IMG/VR virus record: IMGVR_UViG_3300000956_000044
Location: 1-42,826 of that record
Strand: one strand, 5' to 3'
Length of the DNA stretch: 42,826 bases
Origin: a virus
Shown here: positions 1-42,826 of the stretch, in pieces
Numbering within the stretch: position 1 is the stretch's first letter
Layout of the letters: every line of letters starts with the position of its first letter
Made by a program: the position numbers and the translations under genes
The notes under the pieces: model-generated
Database searches by the model: none
The model's input: the letters and a program-made list of their open reading frames with translations, nothing else
Told to the model about the DNA's origin: nothing

Positions 1-50
1 GAAAACGCTCCGAGGACCGGAGTTGGTCAAATAAACCACGATTGGGAAAC
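1..50. repeat. terminal overlap copy 1 (circular closure)
   Basis: These 50 bases are identical to the last 50 bases of the window (42777-42826). The overlap lies inside a gene that is in frame on both sides, so the sequence is best read as a circular or circularly permuted genome opened at an arbitrary point. A repeat this short and sitting inside a coding region looks like an assembly overlap, not a phage direct terminal repeat. Confidence 0.93.
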
Positions 51-111
51 AGAGAACAAATTGCTCAAAGAAATCTCAGACACCTACAAATTCGACATAG
101 GTGTTCTGTGA
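1..111 (+). CDS. GT29/sialyltransferase-like glycosyltransferase, C-terminal part (gene continues from 42318)
   Basis: This is the 3' end of the gene that starts at 42318; joined through the 50-base overlap it gives a 189-residue protein ending at TGA 109-111. The segment here carries about the last 36 residues, after the GT29-type motif S-like block. The next gene starts with GTG at 108, overlapping this stop codon (GTGA), which indicates translational coupling. See the entry at 42318 for function and motifs. The open frame across the junction is itself evidence that the contig closes into a circle. Confidence 0.85.
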   Translation, partial: ENAPRTGVGQINHDWETENKLLKEISDTYKFDIGVL

Positions 112-536
112 AGCCTGACGGAGAAACACGAGTAGGACCGTACCTTGTTCAAGTTGTGAACGCCAAGTTCCCAACTATCGTTAGTTTCAAAGGCGGGGCC
201 AAGGGAATTCGTGAGCGTGGTGACTTTGCTTTTTGGACTACCGTTCTTAAAAAGCGACGCGGACCAAAGAAAGGAAATCGTATTTGGGGGAGGGCGAGAC
301 TAATACTTCCGCCAGGTGATCGCGTAGACCGCATGAAAAAGGAAATGCTTTACGCGAGCGACAAGAACGACCGTAAAATCTACCGTTTGTGGTGGACGAA
401 AGTTATAGAGAAGGGGAAGAATATTAAATATATTCGCCCTTCATCATTGCCAGAGGTTAAGAAGTGGATGCGCAGCCACCAATCTGACGCTCGTTATATT
501 TTCCGCATCATCGTCGGCGGGAAAATCGTTAAATGA
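108..536 (+). CDS. hypothetical basic protein in sugar module
   Basis: I chose GTG at 108, which overlaps the TGA of the upstream glycosyltransferase; an ATG at 42 in the same frame would bury this gene deep in its neighbour. The 142-residue product is rich in Lys and Arg, has no signal peptide or obvious membrane segment, and I do not recognise a family. It contains a basic stretch near residues 50-60 (KKRRGPKKGNR) and aromatic-rich segments (FAFWTTV, YRLWWTKV). Its stop overlaps the ATG of the next gene at 533. Coupling on both sides within a run of sugar genes suggests a role in that module, but no function can be assigned. Confidence 0.7.
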   Translation: MKPDGETRVGPYLVQVVNAKFPTIVSFKGGAKGIRERGDFAFWTTVLKKRRGPKKGNRIWGRARLILPPGDRVDRMKKEMLYASDKNDRKIYRLWWTKVIEKGKNIKYIRPSSLPEVKKWMRSHQSDARYIFRIIVGGKIVK

Positions 537-1288
537 TTGCCGTAACCACCTTCTCTCCTAAAGGCTACGAGATTTACGGCAGGAAGTTACTCGAAAGTCT
601 GATTGAAAACTGGCCGGGCAAAGTCAATTGCTACGTTGATGAAATACCAGACTTAGAACACGAGAAGATCACATACAAACTTCTTAAAAACGTTCACGGT
701 CACGACCAGTTTATTAAATATTGCAGTCAGAATCCTATCTTCAGCGGCAAGGTAGACGGCGGTTACTCCTATACCTTCGATGCTGTTAAGTTCTGTCACA
801 AAGCCTTTGCTCAGTTTGATTCTCTAAGACATAACAAAGGGAAAATATTCTGGATCGACGGGGATTGTGTTTTAACCAAACCCGTCACGGAAGAGTTTAT
901 GTCTTCGGTATTTAACGGCGCGACACTTGCTATCTTAAGCCGTCCCGGTTTTTACACTGAATCTGGGTTTATAGGTTTTGACACAGAGGGAGAGAAGTTC
1001 AAAGAGTTTCTAGATTGGTACGTGAAAATCTACCAGAAAGGTCTCCTCTTCACCCTTCCAGGGTGGCACGACTGCTACGCAGTAGACCACGCGATCAATC
1101 AGTCAGAAGCTCCATACCGTGATTTGGTAGGAAACTGGAAATTCGGAGACAAGCTAGAGGTTTTGGAAAACACCGTTCTCGGTGAATACTTGATTCACAA
1201 CAAAGGCGGAAAGAAATTTGCGAATAGCGGAACACGAGCTGAAAGCGGAAACTCACACCGACCCTTATCCGTGGCACCGACTCACTGA
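533..1288 (+). CDS. glycosyltransferase, GT-A fold with DxD motif (GT8-like)
   Basis: The 251-residue protein looks like a cytoplasmic GT-A transferase that moves sugar from a nucleotide donor. It starts MIAVTTFSPKGYEIYG, typical of the first beta strand of such enzymes, and has a DxD-type metal and nucleotide-binding motif (WIDGDCVL, about residues 107-114). Histidines near the C-terminus (GWHDCYAVDHAI, LIHNKGGKKF) fit the GT8 pattern. Donor and acceptor cannot be inferred. ATG at 533 overlaps the upstream stop, and its 3' end overlaps the oxygenase gene by about 70 bases, so its last residues are encoded in a two-frame region. The family is clear at fold level, the GT number less so. Confidence 0.8.
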   Translation: MIAVTTFSPKGYEIYGRKLLESLIENWPGKVNCYVDEIPDLEHEKITYKLLKNVHGHDQFIKYCSQNPIFSGKVDGGYSYTFDAVKFCHKAFAQFDSLRHNKGKIFWIDGDCVLTKPVTEEFMSSVFNGATLAILSRPGFYTESGFIGFDTEGEKFKEFLDWYVKIYQKGLLFTLPGWHDCYAVDHAINQSEAPYRDLVGNWKFGDKLEVLENTVLGEYLIHNKGGKKFANSGTRAESGNSHRPLSVAPTH

Positions 1289-1754
1289 TTGTTTCCCTGA
1301 TTACGAAGTTCTCTTAAAGAACTTACCTAAAGACGAAGAATACAAAACCTATCCTCTCTATCCCAATAGGACAATTTACCGTCCGATAGATGGGTTTTGG
1401 TCTGACTTAGAACGTCAGTTCTCTGAGATATTCGGAAACATACGGTTTCAGCTTTGCAGAGACTTTCCTGGGTACTCCATCGGTCCGCATACCGACGGAG
1501 GACGAGATAAGGAAGCCTATTTATTTTATCTCGCTAAAGACGATTCCAAACCGCATTTGGGAACGTCTATCTATAAGCGAGATGGATTTACCTGCGACGG
1601 TTCAAAACACCACTCAAGAGACGGTTTCGAGTTGGTAAAGACAGTCCCTTATCTTCCGAACACCGGTTTTAGGTTTTGGCGAACTAACAATTCTTTCCAC
1701 GGAGTCGAACCTACAGACTCCGTTCGCGATGTTCTTCAGATAAATATTTACTAA
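1218..1754 (+). CDS. 2-oxoglutarate/Fe(II)-dependent oxygenase
   Basis: This 178-residue protein has the double-stranded beta-helix signature of 2OG-Fe(II) oxygenases: the iron ligands H91 and D93 in GPHTDGG and H161 in NSFHGVEP, and R170 in SVRDVLQ as the likely 2OG carboxylate binder. It should hydroxylate a substrate using O2 and 2OG. The start is TTG at 1218 with a purine-rich GGCGGAAAG just upstream, which overlaps the preceding glycosyltransferase by 71 bases; a later start would remove little of the conserved core. Sitting among sugar genes, it may hydroxylate a sugar, lipid or protein side chain. Such enzymes are known in marine phages, usually with unknown substrate. Confidence 0.85.
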   Translation: MRIAEHELKAETHTDPYPWHRLTDCFPDYEVLLKNLPKDEEYKTYPLYPNRTIYRPIDGFWSDLERQFSEIFGNIRFQLCRDFPGYSIGPHTDGGRDKEAYLFYLAKDDSKPHLGTSIYKRDGFTCDGSKHHSRDGFELVKTVPYLPNTGFRFWRTNNSFHGVEPTDSVRDVLQINIY

Positions 1755-1769
1755 CACCGACGAGGGTTA

Positions 1770-2513
1770 ATGAGAGCGTTAATAACTGGCCTAAACGGTC
1801 AGGATGGATTCTATTTGTCCGAGTTTTTGAAATCGAAAGGCTATGAGGTATTCGGTTTCGATAAATTCGAATACATGCCGGAAGGACTGTTCGATGAGGT
1901 TTATAACCTCGCCGGTGTTACCGACAGCGAGTACACGTTTGAGAACTGTATTGAGACTTTCAAAGTAAACACGCTTATCGCTATCGAGATGTTGGAATTA
2001 GCGAGAAAGACCGGAGCCAAGATTTTCCAAGCCTCAAGCTCTATGCAGTCAGGTCTTACGCCTTACGGTATTTCAAAGCTCGCGGCGCATAAATTGACCA
2101 AGATGTACCGTGAAGTTCATGGTGTCTATGCAGTTTCAGGCATTTTGCACAACCATGTTAGTCCACGTTCCAAACGAACTGTCGTTAACAAAATTTGCGA
2201 CCACGCCAAACGTGGGGAACCGGTTCAGTTAGGAAACGTACTCTCTGAGAGAGACTGGACGCACGCGAAAGACGTTGTAAAGGCGATGTGGTTAACGTTG
2301 CAACAACCTCATCCTGATGATTACGAAATCTGTTCAGGCGTTACACATTCTGTATTAGATGTTGCAAACATGGCGGGGGCAGAAGTTATTCATAGCAAGT
2401 CGTGCTTAAAGAGGGCGGATCAAAACCATCTAAGCGGAGACCCGTCGAAAATTAAGTCTCTCGGATGGAAACCAGAATACTCCTTAGAAGAAATCATTAA
2501 GGAGATGATGTGA
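1770..2513 (+). CDS. shortened GDP-mannose 4,6-dehydratase-like extended SDR
   Basis: The 247-residue protein is clearly related to GDP-mannose 4,6-dehydratase (Gmd): nucleotide-binding GLNGQDG (7-13), the Tyr/Lys pair of PYGISK (Y99, K103), SGILHNHVSPRS (about 128-139) and the late block ERDWTHAKDVVKAMW. It is about 100 residues shorter than usual Gmd (about 345-370), with deletions in the Arg-rich cofactor/tetramer loop and between the catalytic Ser/Thr and Tyr. Where Gmd has the catalytic Glu (S-E-L-Y-G) this protein reads SSSMQSG, so that Glu is missing. Either it is a minimal dehydratase with altered chemistry, or it is a reductase/epimerase acting on a GDP-keto sugar. Its stop overlaps the GTG of the PLP enzyme gene. 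Confidence 0.85.
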   Translation: MRALITGLNGQDGFYLSEFLKSKGYEVFGFDKFEYMPEGLFDEVYNLAGVTDSEYTFENCIETFKVNTLIAIEMLELARKTGAKIFQASSSMQSGLTPYGISKLAAHKLTKMYREVHGVYAVSGILHNHVSPRSKRTVVNKICDHAKRGEPVQLGNVLSERDWTHAKDVVKAMWLTLQQPHPDDYEICSGVTHSVLDVANMAGAEVIHSKSCLKRADQNHLSGDPSKIKSLGWKPEYSLEEIIKEMM

Positions 2514-3586
2514 GTTTCCCGACCGCTATATCTACGTGGGGAGATGAAGAGATATCAGTAATCCATCGTGTTGTTCAGTCTGGGAACATCACGATGGGGG
2601 CAAAGACATCGGAATTTGAAAAACGTTACGCGGATTACATAGGCACTAGGTATTGCGTAGCAGTGAATTCAGGTTCTTCGGCGAACCTATTGATGGTCGC
2701 CGCCTGGACGTTGAGGTACGGGAAAGGAACGGTAGTTGTTCCTTCTATCGGTTGGGCTACGTCTTATAGTCCTTTTCAACAATACGGTTGGAAGCTTAAG
2801 TTTGTAGACATAGACGTAAAGACGCTTAACTACAACATAGATAAGTTATGGGCAGCATCGGTTGGCGCTGATTTAATCCTTGCCATAAATCTTCTTGGAA
2901 ATCCTAACCAGTTTTCAAGATTTCCAGATGTTCCTTACCTTGAAGATAACTGCGAATCCATGGGGGCGGGATTCGACGGACTTAAGTGTGGATCGTTCGG
3001 TGTAATGTCTAGCCATTCAACCTACTTCGCACATCATATGTGCACGATGGAAGGGGGAATGATTACCACAGACGATGAGTATTTCTACCACATGCTTTTA
3101 AGTCTAAGGTCTCATGGTTGGACTAGGCATTTGCCTGAAGACAATTTGTTAAACGCCAAGGTAGATAAGTTCTCTTTTATTTACCCTGGGTACAACGTAA
3201 GACCCACCGACATGCAGTGTGCTATCGGGATCGAGCAGTTAAGAAAACTCCCTGGGTTTGTAAAGCAAAGACACGAAAACCAGGAAAGATTTAGAGACTA
3301 CTGTGTAAAAAGAAACTGGGGATGTCAGGTAGAACCTATCGGTGGTTATTCCTCTTCCTTTGGATGCGCTTTGTTCACTCCCGATGTAGAGGATGTGAAA
3401 AAGGACTTCGAGAGAAAAGGAATAGACTTCCGACCGATCATGAGCGGGAACTTTACCAAGTCTCCCTCAATTAAATACTACGATTACGAAATTCACGACC
3501 GTTTAAGTAGTACGGATTGGGTCGAGAAGCATGGAATTTTCGTAGGCAATCATCACACGAAAGTCGATTGGTCGATCCTTGATTAG
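2510..3586 (+). CDS. PLP-dependent sugar 3-dehydratase, ColD/RfbH-like (DegT/DnrJ/EryC1 fold)
   Basis: The 358-residue protein belongs to the DegT/DnrJ/EryC1/StrS fold-type-I PLP family: NSGSSAN (53-59) for phosphate binding and LEDNCESMGA (144-153) for the cofactor ring. At the position of the Schiff-base lysine it has histidines (TYFAHHMCTMEGG, H175/H176). In this family a His there marks ColD and RfbH, which remove the 3-hydroxyl of a 4-keto-6-deoxy sugar nucleotide instead of transaminating. Next to a Gmd-like gene, the likely substrate is GDP-4-keto-6-deoxymannose, giving a 3,6-dideoxyhexose precursor (inference). GTG 2510 overlaps the upstream TGA and follows AAGGAG. ColD is about 390 residues, so the length is close to normal. 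Confidence 0.85.
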   Translation: MSFPTAISTWGDEEISVIHRVVQSGNITMGAKTSEFEKRYADYIGTRYCVAVNSGSSANLLMVAAWTLRYGKGTVVVPSIGWATSYSPFQQYGWKLKFVDIDVKTLNYNIDKLWAASVGADLILAINLLGNPNQFSRFPDVPYLEDNCESMGAGFDGLKCGSFGVMSSHSTYFAHHMCTMEGGMITTDDEYFYHMLLSLRSHGWTRHLPEDNLLNAKVDKFSFIYPGYNVRPTDMQCAIGIEQLRKLPGFVKQRHENQERFRDYCVKRNWGCQVEPIGGYSSSFGCALFTPDVEDVKKDFERKGIDFRPIMSGNFTKSPSIKYYDYEIHDRLSSTDWVEKHGIFVGNHHTKVDWSILD

Positions 3587-4226
3587 CTTACTTTGCCCTA
3601 CTAGAGGAAGGCCGGATTTATTTTCAAGGATGGTTCAGTCTGCAAACGACACGGCGGATGGTTTCTTTGAAGTCTTGGCCTATGTAGATGAAGACGACAA
3701 ATACAAACATAAATACCCAGACTGGGTAAAGATCGGAAAACCTATTCCGTTAGCTCCGGCGTATCAGTATCTATACGAGCTGTCGAGTTACGACATCATC
3801 ATGATGTGCGCGGATGATGTTGTTTTTAAAACTCCTGGATGGGACACGAAAGTTAAAGAACTGATGCCGAAAGACGGTATCGGTTTGGTGTCTTACGACG
3901 ACTTGGGAAGACCTAGAAAAGAGGACGGTCATCCTTTCGTCGGAAGAAAGTTCGTCGAGTCCGTAGGTTATTTCTGTTATCCAAAATTGAAACATTCCTG
4001 TATCGACAATTGGTACGTCGATATCGCTAAAGACGTAGGAAGGTATTTCTACGCAGACATAGTAATCGAACACCTTCACCCTAAGTACAAAAAGGGCGAG
4101 TGGGACAATACCTACGAGCTTAATTCCAAAACAATAAAGAAAGAGGACGGTGATATTTACTTAGGAGAGGAAGGAAAGTCTGAGATAAGGAAGGCTGTTG
4201 ATCGCGTAAGGATGTCGTTAACGTGA
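3579..4226 (+). CDS. glycosyltransferase, GT2-like
   Basis: The 215-residue protein starts MISLLCPTRGRPDLFSRMVQS, the typical first strand and helix of GT-A family 2 transferases, and carries an acidic motif MMCADDVVF (about 75-83) at the position of the DxD. It lacks membrane segments and is probably cytoplasmic. The start is TTG at 3579, overlapping the end of the dehydratase gene by 8 bases; the reading frame has no better start before the conserved first strand. The last codons overlap the GTG of the next gene (4223). It probably attaches one sugar of a glycan made by this module; donor and acceptor are unknown. Confidence 0.75.
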   Translation: MISLLCPTRGRPDLFSRMVQSANDTADGFFEVLAYVDEDDKYKHKYPDWVKIGKPIPLAPAYQYLYELSSYDIIMMCADDVVFKTPGWDTKVKELMPKDGIGLVSYDDLGRPRKEDGHPFVGRKFVESVGYFCYPKLKHSCIDNWYVDIAKDVGRYFYADIVIEHLHPKYKKGEWDNTYELNSKTIKKEDGDIYLGEEGKSEIRKAVDRVRMSLT

Positions 4227-4900
4227 TTAGGTGGGCGATTGGTTATGATCCGGTTGAATCGGGTACGTTCTACACTTTGGCGCATTCTTTACACCGTCGA
4301 AGCTCGATGCCTATCTCGATTACTCCCGTTGATTTACAGAATCTCCAAGGGATTCTAACGAGAGAAAGACATCCTCTACAAAGTAATGAATTCTCTTTTT
4401 CTAGGTTTCTAGTGCCTTGGATGATGAACTACCAAGGTTGGGCGGTATTTTCAGACTGCGACATGATCGTTAGAGATGACCCTGCGAAACTTTGGGCGAG
4501 AAGAGACGATAACTACGCGGTCATGGTGGTTCACCATAACCATCAGCCAAAAGAAGAAGTGAAATACCTCGGAAACGTACAAACCAAGTACGAACGTAAA
4601 AATTGGTCATCTGTTGTGTTGTGGAACTGCGGACATCCTGAAGTAAGGAAACTAACCCCAGAGTATGTAAACAGTGCTGAAGGTCTCGAATTACATCAAT
4701 TTCGATGGCTGGACGATTCTGTTATTGGGTATCTGCCTTCTCATTGGAATCACCTTGTGGGTCATGATGCTTATTCTCATGACGCTAAGCTGGTTCACTA
4801 CACGATTGGCGGGCCTTATTTCGAGGATTATAAAAACTGCGACTTTCATCAAGACTGGTTTAAAGAAAATAACCAGATGAATTACATAAAGTCGAAGTAA
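4223..4900 (+). CDS. glycosyltransferase, GT-A with DxD
   Basis: The 225-residue protein has the layout of a soluble GT-A glycosyltransferase: a first strand IRWAIGYDP, the arrangement FSRFLVPWMMNYQGWAVFSDCDMIV with DCD at about 78-80, and a C-terminal HYTIGGPYFEDY block seen in phage and capsule transferases. GTG 4223 overlaps the previous stop as GTGA, and the stop TAA overlaps the ATG of the large terminase (TAATG at 4898-4902). The last sugar gene and the terminase gene are therefore translationally coupled, which shows that the module is expressed with the packaging genes. Confidence 0.75.
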   Translation: MIRWAIGYDPVESGTFYTLAHSLHRRSSMPISITPVDLQNLQGILTRERHPLQSNEFSFSRFLVPWMMNYQGWAVFSDCDMIVRDDPAKLWARRDDNYAVMVVHHNHQPKEEVKYLGNVQTKYERKNWSSVVLWNCGHPEVRKLTPEYVNSAEGLELHQFRWLDDSVIGYLPSHWNHLVGHDAYSHDAKLVHYTIGGPYFEDYKNCDFHQDWFKENNQMNYIKSK

Positions 4901-6327
4901 TGGAAGCCGTAGAAATAATCCAACAACTAGAAGAATACAAACAGACTCACAAGCTCGAATATTACAAGCCTTACGACTTTCAAAAGAAGTTTCATAACGC
5001 CGTAGGGTTTGGAACAGATAGACCGGCGCGCCAAAAGGCGCTGATGGCAGCGAATCAGATCGGTAAGACTTTCTGTGGAGCGATGGAGGTATCAGTTCAT
5101 CTAACCGGCAAGTATCCGAAGTGGTGGACCGGAACTAGATTTAGCTACCCGAACGAATTCGTTATTGCTTCTACGACTAACGAAATGACCCGTGATAGGT
5201 GCCAAAAAGACCTGTTTGGCGACCCTGAGATTGAAAAAGCATTAGGTACTGGCGCGGTTCCGAAAGAAGACATCGGAACCACCACCAGGAAGCCAGGAGT
5301 CCCAAATGCATACGACTCCGTTCTCGTAAAGCACGTCTCTGGCGGTTGGTCTAAGGCTGTTTTTAGGGCCTACGAGCAAGGCCCGAAGAAGTTCATGGGG
5401 ACTAGATTAACCGGCGGTTATTGGGCCGATGAAGAGCCTCCACCGGATGTTAACTCACAACTACTTCGCGGAATCATCGCTACTAGCGGGATAGGAATCC
5501 TGACTTTCACTCCCGAAGAAGGGATGACCGAAGTTGTAGCGGGCCTTATAAACGATATCCAAGTAGGTCAGGCTCTAGTAAGAGCCGCTTGGGACGACGC
5601 TCCGCATATGACGCCTCAGAAGAGAGAAGAGGCGTTAGCAAGGTTCCCGCCTCATGAAAGAGAGATGAGGTCTAAGGGCGAGCCTTTGATGGGTTCCGGT
5701 CGAGTCTTTGACGTTCACGAAGACTTGATAAAGGTCGATCCTTTCGAGATTCCTCAACATTTCGCCAGGATCAACGGAATAGATTTCGGATGGGACCATC
5801 CTGCTGCAACGGCGTTTTTAGCGGTCGATAGAGATAAAGACTGTGTTTACGTCTACGACGGATGGAGAGAGAAAAGAACTCTCATTCCGGTTCACTCTCA
5901 GGCTTCAAAGTCTCACGGTAGCTGGATTCCATGTGCCTGGCCTCACGACGGCCTTGTTCATGACAAACAGTCAGGAAAACAAATAGCAGACCTCTATCGA
6001 GATAACGGGGTGAATATGTGGCATACACAATTCACCAATCCTCCTCCTCCTGGAATGGAAGAAGGCAAAGGAGGGAACGGTGTCGAGGCAGGTATTTTTG
6101 AAATGATGGAAATGATGCAAACGGGAAGATTCAAAGTCTTCTCGAACGTCAGATTTTGGTGGGAAGAAATGCGAATGTACCACCGGCAAAACGGAAAGAT
6201 CGTCCCGTTGATGGATGATTTTATCTCAGCGGTTAGAGTCGGGACCATGTTCAGAAGACATGCACAAACCAAAACTGTCCACCAACCTAAAGTCAGAACT
6301 CAAAGAGGGTTAAGTAATTGGAATTAG
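4900..6327 (+). CDS. terL: terminase large subunit
   Basis: The 475-residue packaging motor has an N-terminal ATPase with Walker A AANQIGKT (50-57) and Walker B-like GGYWADEEP (172-180), and a C-terminal RNase H-like nuclease beginning ARINGIDFGWDHP with the first catalytic Asp at about 294. It drives DNA into the procapsid and cuts the concatemer. Its small-subunit partner is not adjacent: terS lies at 39448, and the sugar module stands between them on the circle. The 3' end overlaps the portal gene by 10 bases. Confidence 0.95.
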   Translation: MEAVEIIQQLEEYKQTHKLEYYKPYDFQKKFHNAVGFGTDRPARQKALMAANQIGKTFCGAMEVSVHLTGKYPKWWTGTRFSYPNEFVIASTTNEMTRDRCQKDLFGDPEIEKALGTGAVPKEDIGTTTRKPGVPNAYDSVLVKHVSGGWSKAVFRAYEQGPKKFMGTRLTGGYWADEEPPPDVNSQLLRGIIATSGIGILTFTPEEGMTEVVAGLINDIQVGQALVRAAWDDAPHMTPQKREEALARFPPHEREMRSKGEPLMGSGRVFDVHEDLIKVDPFEIPQHFARINGIDFGWDHPAATAFLAVDRDKDCVYVYDGWREKRTLIPVHSQASKSHGSWIPCAWPHDGLVHDKQSGKQIADLYRDNGVNMWHTQFTNPPPPGMEEGKGGNGVEAGIFEMMEMMQTGRFKVFSNVRFWWEEMRMYHRQNGKIVPLMDDFISAVRVGTMFRRHAQTKTVHQPKVRTQRGLSNWN

Positions 6328-8246
6328 GTTACGACGTTAAAAAAAGACGTATCTCTGAAAAGGACTGGATGAAGGTCCAGGAATACGTCAAAAAAGAACA
6401 CGGAAAAAGAAAGACCGACTCGTTTCGTAAACACCACGAACTTATTTGGAAGGAAGTAGACCGTCAAGTCTACATGAAATCTCCTGAATATAGAAAAAAC
6501 GATCCAGATCATAAAAACGATTGGCATTCAGCAATAGAGCTAGGGGAACTCGCTAAAGTCTCGGAGATAGTCACCGCTGACGCGATGAGGTTAGTTTTCC
6601 CGGATAACCGTTCTTGGTTTGAGTCTCATATTGAATTGCCTCCTGTTCTAAACCCACAGACAGGAGAAATGAAGTCTCCCGACGAAAAACAACAGAAATT
6701 CATTGATGGCTCATTAAGGGCCTTCATGTCTCAGCAACATTTAGACTTCGGTCACCAGCAGAGAGTAGAGCTTTCAGTTAAAGAAGCATTACACCATGGC
6801 GGTTTTGTAGCTACAGCTAGAAATGAATCAGCGATGATGGTCCATGACGGTACAGGTATTCAAAGCATCTCCGCTCCCGTGTGGGTTCCGCATTCCATGT
6901 GGAACTGCTATCCCGATCCAAGTCCTTCTGTCATTGGAACCAACATGTTTTATACCGGTTCCATGATAGTGGTTGAGTATAAACCACGTCACAAATTGGA
7001 AGAGGAATGCAATAGCGGCGGTCTAGGGTGGATGCCTGCAAACCTAAAGAAGGTCTCAAAGAGAAACAACAAGAACAAAGATATCGAAACCGAAGACGTA
7101 GAATTAATAAATTACTTAGGTGACTGTGTAATAAAAAGAGAAGACGGGGATATTTATCTTCCTAACTCAAAAATCATATTGGCGAATGACACTATTGTTT
7201 TCTACGCCCCTAATGATCTTCCGTTTCCTCCGGTCATCTATAACGGTTATGAAAAACTAGACGTAAGAGACCCTTACTACGTAAGCCCTCTAATCAAATT
7301 GTCGCCGATGCACAAAGTAGCGACGACGATTCTTAACAAGTACATAGAGTGTATTTCTCTAAGCGTTGAGCCTCCCATGCTGTATGACGGAAATGACCCG
7401 TCTTTTGTACAGACTGGAGGACCTGTTTTTGCCCCCGGCTGGAAAGGCCCAACAAAGTCGATGGGGAACGTAAAACAACTTGAAACAGGCGACCCGAATG
7501 CGGCTTTACAAGGGTTTCAGTTAATCACCGAACAAATTAAGCAAGGCTCTACAGCGGATTCTATTCCTTCTGGAGGTGATAAGACCGCCAAGGAAATCAG
7601 AGCGCGAGAGATGCGAAGCGAAGTAAGGGTTGTGAACTTCGTTTCAAAACTTGAATTCTCTCTTAAGACCTTCTTGTACATGCAGCATGAAATAAACAAG
7701 AAGTACATGACCATGTATACCTTCTACAACCCGGAAATGGACGCTCCAGACTTCATGAGGATCACTCGTGAAGAACTGCCACCTACAGCCAGGTTCGACG
7801 TTATAGGTTCAAAGGGAATTTTAGGAGAAGAGGAAAGGTCGCAGAAAATGTCTCTCGTGGTCGCTTTTGCCTCTGGAAATCCTCTTTTTGCGCCTCTCTT
7901 AAAAAGAGTCGATGTACTTAAAGAAATGTTCCAAGACGCTGGACAGAAAAGCCCTGAGAGATTTATTAACGTTCCAGACGACGAGTTTCAACAGCTTGAA
8001 GACGACATTAGAGCTCAATACGAAGAGGCTATGAATCAAGCCAAATCTCAAATATTCGACTTGGAAAAGAAGCTAGCGATTTCTCAAGCAGTAAATGGCG
8101 CAAAGATAGAAGAGGCTCAAATAAAGTCTTCTATTCAAGCCGACTTGGCGCAATTCAAAGCTGAAATTCAAGCTCAACTCGATACATTGGAAACCGGTTT
8201 AAAAATTGCCGAGTCCAAAGCGAAGAATGTCCAAAGCGTACAGTGA
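6318..8246 (+). CDS. portal protein
   Basis: The 642-residue protein directly after terL has the size and composition of podovirus portal proteins. Visible features are an acidic/basic N-terminus, SVKEALHHGGFVATA in the crown/wing region, YVSPLIKLSPMHKVATTILN before the long central helix, and a C-terminal helical, Gln- and Glu-rich barrel-like segment (about 560-640). It forms the dodecameric ring through which DNA passes and to which the terminase docks. The start is TTG at 6318, 10 bases inside terL. The 3' end overlaps a small gene at 8227. The call rests on position, length and residual similarity, not on one diagnostic motif. Confidence 0.85.
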   Translation: MELGYDVKKRRISEKDWMKVQEYVKKEHGKRKTDSFRKHHELIWKEVDRQVYMKSPEYRKNDPDHKNDWHSAIELGELAKVSEIVTADAMRLVFPDNRSWFESHIELPPVLNPQTGEMKSPDEKQQKFIDGSLRAFMSQQHLDFGHQQRVELSVKEALHHGGFVATARNESAMMVHDGTGIQSISAPVWVPHSMWNCYPDPSPSVIGTNMFYTGSMIVVEYKPRHKLEEECNSGGLGWMPANLKKVSKRNNKNKDIETEDVELINYLGDCVIKREDGDIYLPNSKIILANDTIVFYAPNDLPFPPVIYNGYEKLDVRDPYYVSPLIKLSPMHKVATTILNKYIECISLSVEPPMLYDGNDPSFVQTGGPVFAPGWKGPTKSMGNVKQLETGDPNAALQGFQLITEQIKQGSTADSIPSGGDKTAKEIRAREMRSEVRVVNFVSKLEFSLKTFLYMQHEINKKYMTMYTFYNPEMDAPDFMRITREELPPTARFDVIGSKGILGEEERSQKMSLVVAFASGNPLFAPLLKRVDVLKEMFQDAGQKSPERFINVPDDEFQQLEDDIRAQYEEAMNQAKSQIFDLEKKLAISQAVNGAKIEEAQIKSSIQADLAQFKAEIQAQLDTLETGLKIAESKAKNVQSVQ

Positions 8247-9122: not shown

Positions 9123-10208
9123 ATGGCTGGTTTGGACGTAAGTAATTTAACAAGCACGGTACAGGCACCTATCAACAATGTGTACATGCGCGGCCTGTTA
9201 AGCGCGGCACGTAAACGACTTCCCTTCTTTAACGGCACCATGCCGGGTACTTTGGAAAAGAAGGGCGGTTCGATGACGGTCAAGTGGCGTCGTATTGAAA
9301 ACCTGACCGCTGTAACAAGTACCCTGTCGGAAATCACGGAAAACGGTCCTTTGGCTTTCGGTGCTGGCCGCACCGGCACGAAGGCGACCGTTACCGACCT
9401 GACGACCGCTGTAGCGAAGATCGGCAACTTCGTTCTCTTAACCGAAGAAGTCGATCTGTTCAACATCTCTCCCATCACCGCCGCTCTTATGGATACCCTT
9501 GGGGCGAACGCGGGTGAGTCGTTGAACCTTCAGATGTCTACCGTAATGAAAGCCGGTACGAACATTTCGTTTACTGGAGGTGTTGCTAATAAGTCCGCCG
9601 TCGCAACGGCGATTACGTTGAATACCATCAAGAACGCGGTTCAGAACTTGAGCCGTCAGTCTGCGATGCGTTTCGATGGTGCCGCCTATGGTTCTCAAAA
9701 CTACAACTCTCAGCCGATCCGTTCTAGCTTCTTCGGTATTTGCCATACCGATGTCGAGGAAGACATTCGAGGACTGTCTGGGTTTGTAGGGGTAGAACAG
9801 TACGGTGGCTACACACAGACCTATCCAGGTGAGTTCGGTGCAGTCGGCGGTGTGCGTTGGACTTCAACTGAAATTGCTCCGGTTGAAACAAACACTTCTA
9901 CAACTTCCGCGAGCAACAACTTTAAGGGCGATTCAACTGCTTTTGCCGACGTTTACTGGAGCTTTGTCTACGGTAAAGAAGCCGTCGGTTCGGTCGGTGT
10001 AGGCGAGTCTTTCGGGACTCAAATCACCGAAATGTACGATCCGAAAAAGCCTCAAGCTGTAGAGATTATCTACGCCCCGGCTAAAGCGGGCCCGGCAGAC
10101 CCTTACGGTGAAATCAGTTCTATTGCCTGGAAGGCTTGGTTTGGTGGGAAGATTTTGAATCCCAACTGGATCAGGTCGATTATTTCTTTGGCGACGAACT
10201 TCCGCTAA
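9123..10208 (+). CDS. major capsid protein, N4-gp56 family
   Basis: The 361-residue HK97-fold coat protein matches the N4-gp56 major capsid family in length and motifs: ARKRLPFFNGTMPGTLEKKGGSM near the N-terminus, a central TDLTTAVAKIGNFVLLTEEVDLF, FFGICHTDVEEDIRGL and the C-terminal SSIAWKAWFGGKILNPNWI. It builds the icosahedral shell. AGGAGG at about 9108-9113 precedes the ATG at 9123, the strongest Shine-Dalgarno in the operon, as expected for the most abundant protein. A strong terminator follows the stop. Confidence 0.93.
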   Translation: MAGLDVSNLTSTVQAPINNVYMRGLLSAARKRLPFFNGTMPGTLEKKGGSMTVKWRRIENLTAVTSTLSEITENGPLAFGAGRTGTKATVTDLTTAVAKIGNFVLLTEEVDLFNISPITAALMDTLGANAGESLNLQMSTVMKAGTNISFTGGVANKSAVATAITLNTIKNAVQNLSRQSAMRFDGAAYGSQNYNSQPIRSSFFGICHTDVEEDIRGLSGFVGVEQYGGYTQTYPGEFGAVGGVRWTSTEIAPVETNTSTTSASNNFKGDSTAFADVYWSFVYGKEAVGSVGVGESFGTQITEMYDPKKPQAVEIIYAPAKAGPADPYGEISSIAWKAWFGGKILNPNWIRSIISLATNFR

Positions 10209-27958: not shown

Positions 27959-28061
27959 TGTTCTTCCTCTTGTTGAAATGTTTAAAGCCAGCGGCCACAA
28001 CACCGACAACCACTACGGCCAAAAGAACGAAAATAAACCCCACTGATGCACACGCGAGCAT
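27951..28061 (-). CDS. 36-aa single-pass membrane microprotein
   Basis: ATG 28061 follows CAGGAGAGTGAA. The product is a single hydrophobic helix (FIFVLLAVVVVGVVAAGF) with a basic tail KHFNKRKNNG, and its stop overlaps the ATG of the SPFH gene. A good ribosome-binding site and coupling support it. It may be a partner of the SPFH protein. Confidence 0.68.
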   Translation of the reverse strand: MLACASVGFIFVLLAVVVVGVVAAGFKHFNKRKNNG

Positions 28062-31467: not shown

Positions 31468-31794
31468 TTACTTGCGGGATTTCTTCGATTTCGCCATCTG
31501 TGTAATGGCGGTAAACATTGCTTTCTTTTCGGCTTCGTCGAGCTGCATAAATGCCTGGGCGAGGGTGATTGCTTCCTTGTCCAGGGTCTCGATTTCTTCC
31601 GTGCCAAATTGGAGCCATGCCGGGCTTCTCTCCAAAGCCTTAGCGATGGACCCTATTTTTTTAGGTCTCTTTATCATCCCAGCCTCTATTTGTTGGATTG
31701 TCTGCTGGGATACCCCTGACATGCGGGCTAGGTCTTCCTGACGCAAACCTTTTTCTTCCCTGGCAAACCTAAGTCTCTTTGCAAGCGAATCCAT
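31468..31794 (-). CDS. prophage repressor, short CI-like HTH protein
   Basis: I chose ATG 31794, which follows AGAAAGGATAAAA. The 108-residue protein has a lambda-repressor-type HTH: LAKRLRFAREEKGLRQEDLARMSGVSQQTIQQIEAG (about 4-39), then a basic linker and an all-helical C-terminus (LDKEAITLAQAFMQLDEAEKKAM), probably for dimerisation. There is no S24/LexA-like self-cleavage domain (about 200 or more residues would be expected), so induction is unlikely to work by direct RecA-stimulated cleavage. It is divergent from cro with the right operators between. Confidence 0.88.
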   Translation of the reverse strand: MDSLAKRLRFAREEKGLRQEDLARMSGVSQQTIQQIEAGMIKRPKKIGSIAKALERSPAWLQFGTEEIETLDKEAITLAQAFMQLDEAEKKAMFTAITQMAKSKKSRK

Positions 31795-31831
31795 TTTTAT
31801 CCTTTCTTGGGCCTCTCTACAAGGTGTCCCA

Positions 31832-31860
31832 AAGGTACGTTTATTTTTCTTGTAATTCAA
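31832..31860 (-). promoter_or_regulatory. candidate repressor maintenance promoter (PRM-like)
   Basis: On the minus strand TTGAAT (31860-31855), a 17-base spacer and TACCTT (31837-31832) point to the repressor gene. The spacer holds the outer right-operator site (31839-31853). The boxes are weak, as expected for a promoter needing activation by bound repressor. The leader would be about 30 bases and contain AGAAAGGAT. Confidence 0.45.
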
Positions 31861-31897
31861 ACACATAAAAATTGTTGACTGGACAAGTTTTTCTTGT
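31839..31897. promoter_or_regulatory. right operator cluster (three sites, 22-base spacing)
   Basis: A perfect site lies at 31883-31897 (ACAAG TTTTT CTTGT). A degenerate site lies at 31861-31875 (ACACA TAAAA ATTGT). A half-site lies on the minus strand at 31839-31853 (ACAAG AAAAA TAAAC). Their centres (31890, 31868, 31846) are exactly 22 bases apart, about two helical turns, as in a lambda-type tripartite operator. The first occupies the spacer of the cro promoter, the third the spacer of the proposed PRM. Confidence 0.75.
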
Positions 31898-31902
31898 ATC
31901 AT
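31875..31902 (+). promoter_or_regulatory. rightward early promoter (PR-like)
   Basis: TTGACT (31875-31880), 16-base spacer, TATCAT (31897-31902). The operator palindrome starts 2 bases after the -35 and ends on the first base of the -10, exactly the same geometry as in the leftward promoter. The cro ATG is at 31912, so the transcript would have an untranslated leader of only a few bases at most. Confidence 0.85.
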
Positions 31903-32231: not shown

Positions 32232-32606
32232 ATGAAACAAGCTTCCAGGTCATTACAGGTAGAGCTGCAACTACAGCCAGGATTGGTGGATCAGTTCCCC
32301 GATTTCCGTGACGTAGTGAAGGCGTCCGTCTACTCATGCGGTAGGGCGTTTAAGTCCATCGCCGCTGATATGGACATGTCGGTATCGGAGTTGTCGAGAA
32401 AGCTGAACGACAACCCGAGCGATCCCGTTAACTTCCCGCTGCACAGACTCCCCGAGCTGATTAAAGCCACGAGCGACATGCGCCCGATTTACTGGCTGGT
32501 CGAAAAGTTCATGGAGGACGCGGAGACGAAACGTAAGAGGGCGATATTGGAATTGTCGGCCGCACTTCCACAGATCATGCAGCTAGTGAAGGAAGCACAG
32601 AAGTGA
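32232..32606 (+). CDS. CII-like phage regulatory protein
   Basis: The 124-residue protein has a helix-turn-helix (RAFKSIAADMDMSVSELSRKL, about 38-58) followed by PVNFPLHRLPELIKATSDMRPIYWLVEKF, the pattern of Phage_CP76/CII-like regulators. It is located after cro and a terminator, where CII sits in lambdoid phages. It may activate repressor and integrase promoters, or act as a YdaT-like companion of the YdaS-type Cro. The ribosome site is weak. Confidence 0.7.
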   Translation: MKQASRSLQVELQLQPGLVDQFPDFRDVVKASVYSCGRAFKSIAADMDMSVSELSRKLNDNPSDPVNFPLHRLPELIKATSDMRPIYWLVEKFMEDAETKRKRAILELSAALPQIMQLVKEAQK

Positions 32607-36722: not shown

Positions 36723-37033
36723 GCGCAGACCCGCAACTAATGCTCGCCTTGAAGGCCCGCGATGAAGGTATCGCAAGGGTTGCGGGGAATAATCAGACGT
36801 TCATCGAATCCGCTCGTTCAATCGCAAGGATGCTATGCAGGCAGCACGGAGAAACAAACGCGGACGAGGTAAGAGCAGAGTGCGAGAAGCGCGGAATTCT
36901 ACCTAGACATCCAAACGCGTTCGGTGCCGTATTCAAGACGAAAGAGTTTTGCGCGGTAGGTGAATATGTATCGCGGAAGGTTAATTCTCACGGAAACAAA
37001 CTTTACAGGTGGGCATTGAGTAATGGACGGTAA
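36719..37033 (+). CDS. hypothetical protein
   Basis: The 104-residue protein starts at ATG 36719 (ATGA overlap); an upstream in-frame start would read through its neighbour. ESARSIARMLCRQHGETNADEVRAECEKRG and HPNAFGAVFKTKEFCAVGEYV resemble a small phage protein family often near NinB/NinG, perhaps a winged helix. The function is unknown. Confidence 0.62.
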   Translation: MSADPQLMLALKARDEGIARVAGNNQTFIESARSIARMLCRQHGETNADEVRAECEKRGILPRHPNAFGAVFKTKEFCAVGEYVSRKVNSHGNKLYRWALSNGR

Positions 37034-37601
37034 TAAATGCCATGCAGAAAACTGCGTCAAAAATCGACACGGCGGCGGTCGTCACTGTTCCATGCATCAG
37101 GCAAGGTTAAGGATATACGGGACGCTTGAGCCAAATTTACGCAAGGTTGATCGTCGACCCGTGTTCGAGAGGATCATGGACAAGGTCGAGATGATTACGG
37201 AGAGCGGTTGCTGGATATTCATGGGAACTGCAACAACCCACGGACGAATACACCAGCACGGCGGGTTACCTTCTGTGCCAGTTCATAGGGCGGTGTGGGA
37301 GCACTTCAATGGGCCAATCCCAAAAGACATGTGCGTTTGCCATAGGTGCGACATTGGTTTTTGCGTAAATCCAAATCACCTGTTTCTAGGCACCGACCTG
37401 GACAACATGAGGGATAAGGTAAAGAAGAACAGGCAAGCGAAAGGCGAGCGCATCGGTAACGCCAAGCTGACTACAGAGAAAGTCATATATATCAAGACAA
37501 GCAAATTATCCGCCTCAAAGATAGCAAAGGAACTTGGAGTTTGTAAAAGCGCAATCAAGGCAGTCCGCCGTGGCGTTAACTGGGCGCATGTAACCGTATG
37601 A
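37023..37601 (+). CDS. free-standing HNH endonuclease
   Basis: The 192-residue protein has the HNH_3-type core VPVHRAVWEHFNGPIPKD with VCHRCDIGFCVNPNHLFLGT (about 87-125: His, then zinc Cys, then N-P-N-H) and a C-terminal DNA-binding repeat KLTTEKVIYIKTSKLSASKIAKELGVCKSAIKAVRRG like NUMOD/HTH segments of homing enzymes. An N-terminal Cys/His cluster (CHAENCVKNRHGGGRHCSMH) may be another zinc site. It looks like a mobile homing-type nuclease inserted in the Nin region; overlaps with neighbours are short. Confidence 0.85.
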   Translation: MDGNKCHAENCVKNRHGGGRHCSMHQARLRIYGTLEPNLRKVDRRPVFERIMDKVEMITESGCWIFMGTATTHGRIHQHGGLPSVPVHRAVWEHFNGPIPKDMCVCHRCDIGFCVNPNHLFLGTDLDNMRDKVKKNRQAKGERIGNAKLTTEKVIYIKTSKLSASKIAKELGVCKSAIKAVRRGVNWAHVTV

Positions 37602-38285: not shown

Positions 38286-38852
38286 ATGAACCCTGCTTCA
38301 TTGCTGGCGTTAGTGACCGCTCGTGCTATCCCATTTGAGATAATGGCTAGTTCCTACCAGCGGATAACCCAAGAGGATGTATTGCACGCAATGGGGTCGA
38401 TCAAGCACGGCGGGGCGAGTTACCTGATTCGTGTAAAATGGGCTGGACAGTCACACTGGACGCCTGAGTTAGAACGTCTTTTTTGGCTAGCGATACTGGG
38501 CCTAGCCAAACGGGAGGAATGGAAATACCCCAAGAGCATGGAAGGCAAAGAGCTTTACCGGGGGATGGCGAGATTAGCCTTGGCCGAGACCCTGAACCCG
38601 AATATATGCCTCGAATGCGGAGGGTGCGGGAAAGAAGTAACACCGGAAGGTAAGTTAGCCAACTGCAAACCCTGTAGAGGTAGCGGGAAAAGCACACACT
38701 CGGACAGGTCAAGATCGAGAATGCTTGAAATGCCTTGGGAGACATTCAGAGAGCAATGGTCTGACCGGTACCGGAGAGTGCAGGGGATAGCGGATGCGTG
38801 GGAGTCTTTAGCTTTGTCGGCTATCCATCGAAAAGTAAAGGAAACCGCTTGA
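38286..38852 (+). CDS. Q-like late antitermination protein
   Basis: The 188-residue protein has HGGASYLIRVKWAGQ (about 37-51), a zinc-finger region CLECGGCGKEV...CKPCRGSGK (about 113-138) similar to DnaJ-type and Q-type fingers, and a basic C-terminal helix. AAGGAGAAGAA precedes the ATG. Its position right before a strong promoter plus terminator pair, with the promoter -35 overlapping its stop codon, is exactly the Q / PR' / tR' layout of lambdoid phages. It should load on paused polymerase and allow late transcription. Confidence 0.82.
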   Translation: MNPASLLALVTARAIPFEIMASSYQRITQEDVLHAMGSIKHGGASYLIRVKWAGQSHWTPELERLFWLAILGLAKREEWKYPKSMEGKELYRGMARLALAETLNPNICLECGGCGKEVTPEGKLANCKPCRGSGKSTHSDRSRSRMLEMPWETFREQWSDRYRRVQGIADAWESLALSAIHRKVKETA

Positions 38853-38877
38853 CATCACACACCCACGGGACTAGAGT
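38849..38877 (+). promoter_or_regulatory. late promoter (PR'-like)
   Basis: TTGACA (38849-38854), 17-base spacer, TAGAGT (38872-38877). The -35 overlaps the stop codon of the Q-like gene. Transcription should begin near 38884 and meet the terminator at 38916 after 30-65 bases, giving a short constitutive leader unless antiterminated. Confidence 0.82.
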
Positions 38878-38915: not shown

Positions 38916-38948
38916 AAGCCCTGGCCATTGCGCCGGGGCTTTTCTTTT
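38916..38948 (+). terminator. late leader terminator (tR'-like)
   Basis: AAGCCCTGGC (38916-38925) pairs with GCCGGGGCTT (38932-38941), one T-G wobble, six-base loop, followed by TTTTCTTTT. It lies directly downstream of the late promoter and before all late genes, so it is the likely Q-controlled gate. Confidence 0.9.
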
Positions 38949-39447: not shown

Positions 39448-39888
39448 ATGAGACGTAGGCTTGGGCCAACCGAAAAGGAACTCATGTACATCGAGTTCTA
39501 CACGGATCATGGAGACGCGACGCTAGCCGCGAAGCAAGCAGGCTATTCCGAACACTCCGCTCAGGTTATTGGTAGCCAGTTAAAGAAGAAGCTAAGAGCA
39601 GAGCTAGACGAACGACTCACCGAGAAGATGACAGGTGACTGTGCCCTTGCAAGGTCGGTAATCGTTAAACTCTGTAAAGAAGCCCAAAGCGACGATATCA
39701 GGCTTAAGGCCGCCAAAGACATTATGGATCGCGGCGGACATCCAGCCGCTAAAGAGATCATCGCCAAGGAAGAAAAGAAAAGACCAGACCAGCTCATCGA
39801 GCAGCTTAGAGGCCAGCTCGGCGACGATGTAGCAAATGCTATTGCCAGACAATACACACCTGAAGACGTATCGGAGACTACCCATTGA
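39448..39888 (+). CDS. terS: terminase small subunit
   Basis: The 146-residue protein reads LGPTEKELMYIEFYTDHGDATLAAKQAGYSEHSAQVIGSQLKKK (about 5-50), the N-terminal HTH of small terminases, followed by helical oligomerisation sequence and an acidic C-terminus. It recognises phage DNA for packaging. In most phages terL follows directly; here nearly 8.3 kb separates them on the circle. Confidence 0.88.
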   Translation: MRRRLGPTEKELMYIEFYTDHGDATLAAKQAGYSEHSAQVIGSQLKKKLRAELDERLTEKMTGDCALARSVIVKLCKEAQSDDIRLKAAKDIMDRGGHPAAKEIIAKEEKKRPDQLIEQLRGQLGDDVANAIARQYTPEDVSETTH

Positions 39889-40829: not shown

Positions 40830-41018
40830 ATGGCCTCTGACGCGGAATACAAGATTCTAGAAACAGCGGTGAGAGAGCTTCAGTCAGAAAGAACAGAACT
40901 GCTCACAGAGCTAGGCAAGCTAAGGTCAGACTCAGTTAATGTCGAGTCTCTAAGGTCCGCTTATAACGAGCTTCTCTCGAAGTTCATTGAAGTGAAGGGA
41001 AGGCGTGAACCTAAGTAG
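40830..41018 (+). CDS. coiled-coil small protein
   Basis: The 62-residue product is almost one continuous heptad helix (YKILETAVRELQSERTELL, VESLRSAYNELLSKFIEV) with a basic end. It overlaps the first glycosyltransferase gene by 14 bases, so it is translated together with the module. The function is unknown. Confidence 0.6.
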   Translation: MASDAEYKILETAVRELQSERTELLTELGKLRSDSVNVESLRSAYNELLSKFIEVKGRREPK

Positions 41019-42048
41019 TTACGACTTTCACTGCCAGGTTATAAACCGGTGTGACTGGCCGAGATTCGAGAAGGAGAAGATCAAAAAGAGGATCAAGAAG
41101 ATTCTCCGCAGGGACGGAATCGTAGACATTAATGCCTTCGAGCCGTCCTACCGGTGGAATCTTTGTACCATGCGGCTGGAAAGTGGTGATTTTACTGACT
41201 GGGACGGCTGGGAGTTTAGAAGTCCTTGGTTCATGACCTTCCGAGGGGTTCATGGTGAGAAGTGTCCCGTTAAGAGATGGGACGGTAAACCAGTAAATCA
41301 TCTCGTAGTCCTTGGAGAACAGGGTCTAGGAGACGAAATACTCTTCTTAAGCGCCTTACCTGACCTCATGGTAAGGATTGGTAAAGGAATCGAGTGGGTA
41401 GGGTACAAGCAGTTAAACTCTGTCGTAGAAAGAAGCTACGGAATCTCTACCTCCGAGCGACGAATATTGAGTGAAATCACGGAAGGCGACGCTGTTATCG
41501 CCTCCGGTGATTTGTTTCAGTGGTACAGAAGGGACAAAAATCACTTTCCGAGAAAGCCTTTCCTAAAACCCGACCCCAAAAGGGTAGAAAAATGGAAAAA
41601 CTGGCTCTCTCAGTTTGAAGGTAAGAAGAAAATCGGGTTAGGGTGGTACTCAAGACACGGATTTATCAAACCAGAGGATTTGTTAGTTGAAAAAGACGCG
41701 GTTTACTTCGATCTTCAATACAGAAAACCTGAAATCAACGTCCCTGAGTGTCCTAAAGACGTTCTACCGTGTCCTTTCGACTTTACCGACTCTTTTGAAG
41801 ACCTCTTTGCGTTCGTTTCTTGTCTGGGTAAAGTCTTTACCTCTACCCAGACGTTAGTCCATGTCTGTGGTTCTGTCGGTGTCGAGACACACGCTATCCA
41901 GCCACCAAAGAACGGAGAGGTTAAGTTTCCCCTTTGGTACAACCAATGCCGAGTCTTGGGAGATTTAGAGTCCTGGCCTCATCTGGTTTACGGTTCAGTC
42001 AAAGTCTACGAGAACATAAATGAGTTCAGAGCTAGCCGCGCTAGATGA
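41005..42048 (+). CDS. glycosyltransferase, GT-B heptosyltransferase/TPR-like
   Basis: The 347-residue protein resembles GT9/GT41-type GT-B enzymes: a strand and glycine loop VVLGEQGLGDEILFLSALPDL (about 101-121), KKIGLGWYSRHGF as the start of the second Rossmann domain (about 209-221), and a C-terminal STQTLVHVCGSVGVET (about 281-296) for the nucleotide sugar. These often act on LPS core or surface glycans; here the acceptor is unknown. GTG 41005. It is the first enzyme of the late sugar module. Its 3' end overlaps a small helical gene. Confidence 0.8.
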   Translation: MNLSSYDFHCQVINRCDWPRFEKEKIKKRIKKILRRDGIVDINAFEPSYRWNLCTMRLESGDFTDWDGWEFRSPWFMTFRGVHGEKCPVKRWDGKPVNHLVVLGEQGLGDEILFLSALPDLMVRIGKGIEWVGYKQLNSVVERSYGISTSERRILSEITEGDAVIASGDLFQWYRRDKNHFPRKPFLKPDPKRVEKWKNWLSQFEGKKKIGLGWYSRHGFIKPEDLLVEKDAVYFDLQYRKPEINVPECPKDVLPCPFDFTDSFEDLFAFVSCLGKVFTSTQTLVHVCGSVGVETHAIQPPKNGEVKFPLWYNQCRVLGDLESWPHLVYGSVKVYENINEFRASRAR

Positions 42049-42316
42049 ATTGAAAGGCCGTTTGATGTTCCTACAAGTCGAATACTTGGATATGGGAGTC
42101 AGGATAAGACCCGCTTTAGAGGTCATAGAGAAATCTATGCAGACAGCGGTTAAAGGACCGCTCACCATAACCCAAGTCGATGAACTGGCCGAGGAGATGT
42201 CCGACCTAAGGAAATACCTAGCTTGGGTGAAAGGTGATTACCCTGAAGTCACGAAAGACGTAGAACCTGTCATTAACGTCATTAGCTGGCTACTCGCTTC
42301 AGAAACTAAACACTAA
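42020..42316 (+). CDS. helical hypothetical protein in sugar module
   Basis: The 98-residue protein is helical (ELAALDELKGRLMFLQVEYLDMG; VDELAEEMSDLRKYLAWV). It overlaps the GT-B gene by 29 bases and is followed after one base by the GT29-like gene. It has no signal or membrane segment. A chaperone or partner of the neighbouring enzymes is possible but unsupported. Confidence 0.6.
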   Translation: MSSELAALDELKGRLMFLQVEYLDMGVRIRPALEVIEKSMQTAVKGPLTITQVDELAEEMSDLRKYLAWVKGDYPEVTKDVEPVINVISWLLASETKH

Positions 42317-42317
42317 C

Positions 42318-42826
42318 TTGAAAATTTGCGTTGTAGGTCACGGACCCTCACCTATAGGGAAGGCCAAAGGTAAAGAAATAGACAGTTTCGATGTCGTCGT
42401 AAGACTGAAGAACTGCAAGCCTTTGTTGGAAACTCCAGATTACGGAAATCGTACAGATTCAATCTGTATGTCTACCGAGGTAGTCGGTCTAGCCAACTAC
42501 ATGGAATGCGGTATGTACTGGTTATACCCAAAGAAAGGCGACTATGACCGAGTAAGGACGTTTAATGTCATCGCAGACTTGGGCGCTCCTTTCATGATCC
42601 CTTTAAGTCTTTCCAATCACTGGAATTCAAGGTTCAGAGAGATTGGAGGAAAGCACCCTAATGTTTCGACAGGTCTTGCAGCGATTTTCATCGCTGCTCA
42701 TTACTACGAGCCTAACCAAATCTGTTTAGTTGGGTTCGATACTTTGCTTGACCCAACTATACCGTTTACTCGAAACGAAAACGCTCCGAGGACCGGAGTT
42801 GGTCAAATAAACCACGATTGGGAAAC
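42318..42826 (+). CDS. GT29/sialyltransferase-like glycosyltransferase, N-terminal part (continues at 51-111)
   Basis: From TTG 42318 the gene runs off the window and completes at 111 (189 residues in all). It carries a sialylmotif-L-like start VVGHGPSPIGKAKGKEIDSF then DVVVRLKNC (about 5-33), and a motif-S-like block NVSTGLAAIFIAAHYY then ICLVGFD (about 115-141). This is the signature of family 29, best known from eukaryotic sialyltransferases, with shortened bacterial and phage relatives. The donor need not be sialic acid. It is soluble and lies in the middle of the late sugar module. Confidence 0.82.
   Translation, partial: MKICVVGHGPSPIGKAKGKEIDSFDVVVRLKNCKPLLETPDYGNRTDSICMSTEVVGLANYMECGMYWLYPKKGDYDRVRTFNVIADLGAPFMIPLSLSNHWNSRFREIGGKHPNVSTGLAAIFIAAHYYEPNQICLVGFDTLLDPTIPFTRNENAPRTGVGQINHDWE
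42777..42826. repeat. terminal overlap copy 2 (circular closure)
   Basis: Identical to bases 1-50. It falls inside the GT29-like gene, and both copies are in the same reading frame, so joining them once restores an intact gene. Confidence 0.93.

Follow-up and report, generated by a model that had tools for sequence, protein, structure and literature searches.

Chlorella virus PBCV-1 makes its capsid glycan with enzymes of its own, which include soluble transferases as well as nucleotide-sugar enzymes (Gmd). Colitose is an O-antigen sugar of bacteria, and O-antigens are the typical setting of ColD/colitose chemistry. The donors of GT29 enzymes are CMP-sugars, of which Gram-negative hosts possess CMP-Kdo. 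Phage-encoded capsid glycosylation has already been described for mycobacteriophages, whose glycosyltransferases modify capsid and tail-tube subunits (Freeman et al. 2023, cited in PMC12619734 and PMC12691614); according to the description in these citing papers, on which our comparison draws, these are actinobacterial phages with glycans on the C-termini of the capsid and tail-tube proteins. Set against that description, the locus described here is a 10-gene module lying between the genes for the small (terS) and large (terL) terminase subunits; among the ten are a 3,6-dideoxysugar enzyme and a GT29-family member. The likeness to PBCV-1 lies in the virus-encoded sugar enzymes and transferases, but PBCV-1 is a virus of eukaryotes and the genes are unrelated. 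We consider it probable (about 0.6) that the module is a late-expressed virion-glycosylation system, and related genes beside the capsid gene in unrelated viruses suggest that viruses of several kinds cover their capsids with an uncommon sugar chain.

Layout and predicted control of the sugar genes

The window (the whole stretch of viral DNA that we analysed, 42,826 nucleotides) ends in an exact 50-bp direct repeat (positions 1-50 = 42777-42826), and its edge can therefore be closed into a circle of 42,776 bp. The sugar block that the earlier note had placed between terS and terL is found on this circle as ten same-strand, mostly overlapping genes (Table 1). Across the join the + strand carries terS, a coiled-coil ORF, the first transferase (GTB), a small helical protein, the GT29-like transferase, a basic protein and GT8a; it continues with the 2OG-like gene, the short-chain dehydrogenase (SDR), the ColD-like gene, a GT-A enzyme, GT8b and terL, and then with the portal, scaffold-like and major capsid protein (MCP) genes. 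The distance from the end of terS to the start of terL is about 7.8 kb, neighbours within the block nearly all overlap or abut (maximum gap 15 bp), and the last sugar gene, GT8b, is coupled to terL through TAATG, a junction that we re-read as claimed. The integrase together with the repressor-like and CII-like genes makes the phage look temperate, and integrases are present too in the contigs of three relatives (L002, L004 and L013) and in MW202713. Elsewhere on the circle are a gene for an SPFH/Band 7 family protein (27152-28009, - strand), adjoining RecT in the early leftward region; a methyltransferase-like gene (19192-20013, - strand) that closes the leftward operon, immediately past the late genes; and an HNH endonuclease gene (37023-37601) ahead of the Q-like gene, a homologue of which lies within the module of L154 (2633-2893).

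Table 1. Features of the window, in the order of the late region across the join, followed by genes elsewhere
Feature	Coordinates	Strand	Basis or remark
Q-like antiterminator gene, 188 aa	38286..38852	+	phrog_127 'anti-termination protein Q-like' 5e-6
Late-promoter-like site TTGACA-17-TAGAGT, at end of Q-like gene	38849..38877	+	10/12, consensus match only
Terminator-like hairpin, 10-bp stem, T-rich tail	38916..38941	+	placed like lambda tR'
terS, small terminase subunit	39448..39888	+	phrog_51 9.1e-10
GTB, short GT9-like GT-B glycosyltransferase (predicted), helical N-terminal segment	41005..42048	+	phrog_36377 2e-4; AF2/Foldseek
Small helical protein, 98 aa	42020..42316	+	conserved in L002, L003, L005, L039 (47-63%)
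GT29-like transferase, 189 aa	42318..42826 + 1..111, across join	+	Pfam PF00777 9e-7
Basic protein	108..536 (longer ORF 42-536)	+	net charge +28 over longer ORF
GT8a, GT-A-type transferase	533..1288	+	alignment: conserved DxD, C-terminal H-x-KG
2OG-Fe(II) oxygenase-like protein	1218..1754	+	HTD...HG...R pattern, motif only
SDR derived from GDP-mannose 4,6-dehydratase	1770..2513	+	GDP_Man_Dehyd 2e-53
ColD-type GDP-4-keto-6-deoxymannose 3-dehydratase (substrate by homology)	2510..3586	+	PDB 2gms/ColD 1.8e-94
GT-A-type glycosyltransferase, variable slot	3579..4226	+	phrog_14945 2.6e-27; few relatives
GT8b, GT-A-type transferase	4223..4900	+	phrog_28018 1e-40; DxD invariant in alignment
terL, large terminase subunit	4900..6327	+	phrog_2 7e-25, phrog_5653 6e-26
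Portal / head-tail adaptor	6318..8246	+	phrog_332 5e-15
MCP, proposed acceptor	9123..10208	+	phrog_1357 3e-40
Integrase	21849-23060	-	opposite strand to module
Repressor-like gene	31468-31902
CII-like gene	32232-32606		match just below its cut-off

Upstream of terS, the Q-like gene, the promoter-like site and the terminator-like site are laid out as at lambda pR'/tR', with the strong terminator-like hairpin beginning 39 bases past the promoter-like site. The arrangement is repeated in L233, part of the contig that also carries the relative L002 (this contig is without an end repeat, so the joining of L233 to L002 is assumed): a Q homologue (25% identical, E 1e-19) has at its end a promoter-like TTGATA-16-TATAAT (11/12), and a terminator-like site lies at 2560-2582. 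L233 also holds two opposite-strand ORFs (261 and 176 aa; 3418-4736, - strand) between its late promoter and its terS-like gene. Scans of the + strand from terS to terL of the window returned no convincing internal promoter (a single promoter-like match, at 406-434, fewer than in shuffled sequences) and only weak terminator-like matches, and the search for structured RNA ahead of the module gave nothing special (z -0.65). The Q-like gene and the promoter-like and terminator-like sites ahead of terS, with no convincing promoter inside the block, make late expression a prediction that the anatomy supports well. The earlier claim that these genes are made with the virion operon thus gains a set of candidate control elements, repeated in a relative, from which expression itself is predicted.

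The same note had distinguished the block from lysogenic-conversion cassettes. Gtr-type cassettes stand next to the integrase or attP, whereas here over 16 kb of the circle separates the integrase from the module, and the two are on opposite strands. Pfam and phrog searches gave no GtrA/GtrB-type family match among the module proteins, all of which are predicted to be soluble, with no transmembrane segment in any. Location and lack of membrane proteins rule out Gtr-type seroconversion as the best reading, and the distinction is borne out by the block being a core trait of its terL clade (described below).

Predicted activities of the module proteins

The first gene had been called a GT-B transferase, which can now be refined. 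GTB has no Pfam GT9 match and is thus a distant relative of that family, with a predicted GT-B fold: its AF2 model (pLDDT 87) matches GT9/WaaF/WaaC structures in Foldseek (5e-5 to 7e-5, TM 0.43-0.48) and, weakly, TibC. Its kin include proteobacterial TPR-transferases near type IV pilin genes; the bacterial GTBs examined bear TPR repeats, TPR-like repeats were seen by eye in six long viral forms, and the window GTB is a short form.

The GT29-like call stood up on three counts: the protein scores 29 bits against PF00777 (curated cut-off 23), the modelled fold of its L002 orthologue (64% identical, pLDDT 90.5) matches only mammalian sialyltransferases below E 1e-3, and the alignment contains L-, S- and VS-like motifs with a conserved H-x4-E near the C-terminus. 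A profile of the phage protein's own family retrieves human and pig sialyltransferases, and GT29 is the only family that matches the phage protein in profile and fold at high significance. By sequence and model the protein is a compact relative of the animal sialyltransferases, which measure about 300 aa, whereas the phage-encoded form is much shorter (Table 1) and soluble. GT29 occurred in 4 of 299 Pseudomonadota genomes, and our searches of the openly available literature turned up neither a GT29 nor a colitose module in phages.

The 'ColD/RfbH-like' label given earlier to the DegT protein holds for its first half only. The match to ColD (2gms, 1.8e-94) is far better than that to E1 (2e-29), which rules out an RfbH/E1 identity, and the sequence alignment places His at the PLP-Lys position; the protein is, by homology, a ColD-type 3-dehydratase. 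The neighbouring Gmd-like SDR retains its claimed descent from Gmd, but has lost the Gmd catalytic Glu: in the alignment STSE has become SSSM, where relatives keep STSE or SSSE, and the GDxTD segment has also gone together with a loop (two loops lost in all), the frame staying open. The Thr/Ser-Glu-Tyr-Lys active site of Gmd is not found in the window SDR, which is Gmd-derived only. The Gmd step in this phage therefore looks broken; the phage may take GDP-4-keto-6-deoxymannose from the host, or the function of the SDR may differ. Relatives keep a canonical Gmd, and L008 has Gmd, a GDP-fucose synthase (GFS)/ColC-type SDR and ColD. The GDP-colitose pathway of O-antigen clusters (Gmd, ColD, ColC) shares with the window phage a ColD orthologue by sequence, but the window phage has no ColC-like gene and its Gmd-like SDR is without the catalytic Glu; those clusters have wzx/wzy linkage, whereas the module is linked to head genes. 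Two other kinds of enzyme gene were seen in this part of relatives' modules: a fusion of a cytidylyltransferase-like and a mannose-6-phosphate isomerase C-terminal domain in the ColD slot of L010 (8632-9276), and a radical SAM-SPASM enzyme between ColD and GT8b in L005 (6182-7132) and L039 (7233-8180).

The remaining proteins are less constant or less readily classified. GT8a has no Pfam match. With no Pfam or PDB match, the 2OG assignment is by motif, a pattern conserved in four sequences, and the gene is present in few relatives and missing from most. Beyond the relatives in Table 1, the small helical protein is weakly conserved in L004, L008, L073 and L154. None of the loci examined has a relative of the strongly basic protein encoded between GT29 and GT8a; the GTG at 108 overlaps the preceding stop, which makes a 142-aa protein likelier than the longer ORF.

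Recurrence in relatives and linkage to capsid genes

Relatives were retrieved through terL and later through GT8b and GT29. The same block, in the same order, precedes terL in 12 other phage contigs with ColD, some of them cut at the contig edge (L002, L003, L004, L005, L006, L008, L011, L039, L073, L154, L253 and L254); it occurs without ColD in L009 and L010 and in reduced form in L013-L015, L017/L018, L066 and L257. This recurrence far exceeds chance. All 21 module-bearing rows of the terL tree form one clade (support 100/99), the two remaining rows of which, scored 'none', are contigs that start inside terL, so that the block could not show there; every terL relative in the clade with readable upstream DNA bears some form of it. 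The transferases are under purifying selection (dN/dS about 0.1 where measurable, that is, not saturated), and variable slots (methyltransferase, radical SAM, HNH) have been gained and lost among relatives. The question raised earlier, of the set's recurrence between terS and terL in relatives, is answered in the affirmative by G002 (the contig of L004, with a 127-bp terminal repeat), where a small TerS-like protein, read by eye, lies upstream of the run from GTB through terL. A terS profile search in relatives gave no match, so that their terS rests on a weak match, or on position and sequence reading. In the bacterial genome scan we found no prophage with host flank; L073, binned in the MAG of a gammaproteobacterium, is a phage contig.

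Two Caudoviricetes genomes from Manatee Spring are among the nearest cases, and their annotations name no virion-glycosylation role. In ct7QV12 (MW202713), GTB, GT8a, a methyltransferase and a PLP enzyme precede terL, but homologues of GT29, Gmd and GT8b are lacking and the DegT protein is only distantly related; in ctDrO704 (MW202512), GTB and GT8b follow the MCP gene.

We also assembled an independent set of viral contigs retrieved by the GTB sequence alone (79 contigs with 6-kb flanks, partly redundant). A short GTB stood before terL in 24 of the 79, and a longer GTB followed MCP at 0.3-2.0 kb in 29 and the portal gene in 4, in every one of these cases on the same strand. The remainder were mostly module-clade members with terL beyond the 6-kb flank, or contigs cut just upstream of GTB; in three (L284, L298 and L329) the flank was present and no head gene was recognised in it. 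Long GTBs adjoin MCPs of two other families (phrog_334 and phrog_1328); the window MCP belongs to phrog_1357. Head-gene adjacency may reflect common late expression rather than a common substrate. In two unrelated phages a relative of the GT29 gene comes directly after the MCP gene (L258, 6105-7675; L260, 8937-10513).

The divergence of GTB tracks that of MCP: the partial Mantel r is 0.68 given terL and portal (p 2e-4), 0.65 when four head genes are accounted for (terL, portal, scaffold and a further one) and 0.69 within full-module phages. The value for GT8a is 0.58, whereas GT8b and ColD divergence did not track MCP in these tests (about 30 comparisons on 11-15 related genomes, among which kinship can make the tests anti-conservative). 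The alignment also places a Ser/Thr patch, ETNTSTTSASN, in the MCPs of the module clade and not in outgroup MCPs; that it is the glycan acceptor site is speculation.

The bacterial kin of the transferases point in a related direction. Type IV pilin genes lie within 10 kb of proteobacterial GT8b relatives in 18 of 79 loci, PilB/GspE-type ATPases in 19 and GTB-type TPR-transferases in 35; these TPR-glycosyltransferase clusters combine homologues of GT8b (54-62% identical) with homologues of GTB (23-34%). The proximity of type IV pilin and pilus ATPase genes suggests that these bacterial kin act in protein glycosylation. An apparent GT41 presence in 78 of the 79 loci proved to be an artefact of an ORF antisense to GT8b (the catalytic part alone: 22 of 79). 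Loci L089-L149, from uncultured beta- and gammaproteobacteria, contain TPR-glycosyltransferase arrays with GT8b relatives, GT2/FkbM, pilin and PilB/GspE-type genes.

Proposed target of the module and alternative readings

The earlier note had left the target open among virion protein, phage DNA and a late host glycan. Soluble proteins, pilin-adjacent kin, head-gene linkage and GTB/MCP co-divergence together favour a virion protein, most likely MCP, on grounds of homology and context. After induction, Q-like antitermination would let transcripts that start at the late promoter extend over terS, the sugar block and terL and on into the head genes; the soluble GT9-like GTB would probably begin a glycan on the virion protein, most likely MCP, and GT8a, the GT29-like enzyme, the other GT-A enzyme and GT8b would lengthen it. 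The ColD-type enzyme and a Gmd activity (phage-borne in relatives, host-derived here) would supply a GDP-linked 3,6-dideoxyhexose, and the 2OG oxygenase-like, methyltransferase or radical-SAM proteins of the variable slots could tailor the chain, which could keep receptors, proteases or grazers off the particles or adjust their attachment. A fuller statement, which we put forward tentatively and would not bet on as a whole, is that a phage-specified glycan is put on MCP throughout a clade of temperate podovirus-like phages, and also in several head-gene lineages unrelated to it, that the clade's glycan contains a 3,6-dideoxyhexose and an acid sugar donated from CMP via a minimal GT29, and that the machinery is common to proteobacterial TPR-transferase clusters that modify type IV pilins. 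If virion glycosylation is the right reading, it would be a widespread and old trait of uncultured phages of Gram-negative bacteria, with its genes at set positions of the head operon; glycosylated particles could then be recognised from the genome by a GT9/TPR transferase next to MCP or terL, the purpose of virion sugars would become testable, and small soluble GT29 and ColD-linked transferases would be at hand for glycobiology.

A module that alters the LPS core or O-antigen of the host late in infection, stopping released particles from sticking to debris or blocking superinfection, would account for the O-antigen character of ColD/colitose chemistry, for the GT9-like nature of GTB (GT9 includes LPS heptosyltransferases) and for a GT29-like enzyme, whose family uses CMP-sugars, in Gram-negative hosts, which have CMP-Kdo. 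We nevertheless think it unlikely, since the module is without a flippase, a membrane-anchored transferase or an acyl/lipid-carrier gene and its proteins without transmembrane segments, and since the neighbours of GTB homologues are capsid genes in unrelated phages and pilin genes in the bacterial kin. Those same pilin and pilus-ATPase neighbourhoods would fit glycosylation of the host type IV pilin, likely the ancestral substrate of GTB and GT8b, as a means of blocking adsorption by competitors; the predicted late expression, the capsid linkage and the co-divergence are unexpected for a pilin target and make this quite improbable. Transferases acting on phage DNA with a modified base are more improbable still: virus-encoded glycosyltransferases that hypermodify DNA exist, as PMC12619734 reports in citing Pyle 2024, and the module includes a 2OG-dioxygenase-like gene, but most relatives lack that gene, and the window proteins scanned, which took in part of the small ORFs, yielded no gene of thymidylate-synthase-like, hydroxymethylase or TET/JBP type. 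Least credible is that the genes ride along in the late operon, as selfish cargo or in decay, and do nothing specific for the virion, as the altered SDR and the coming and going of the variable slots might suggest, in the face of clade-wide retention, the low dN/dS and conserved catalytic motifs.
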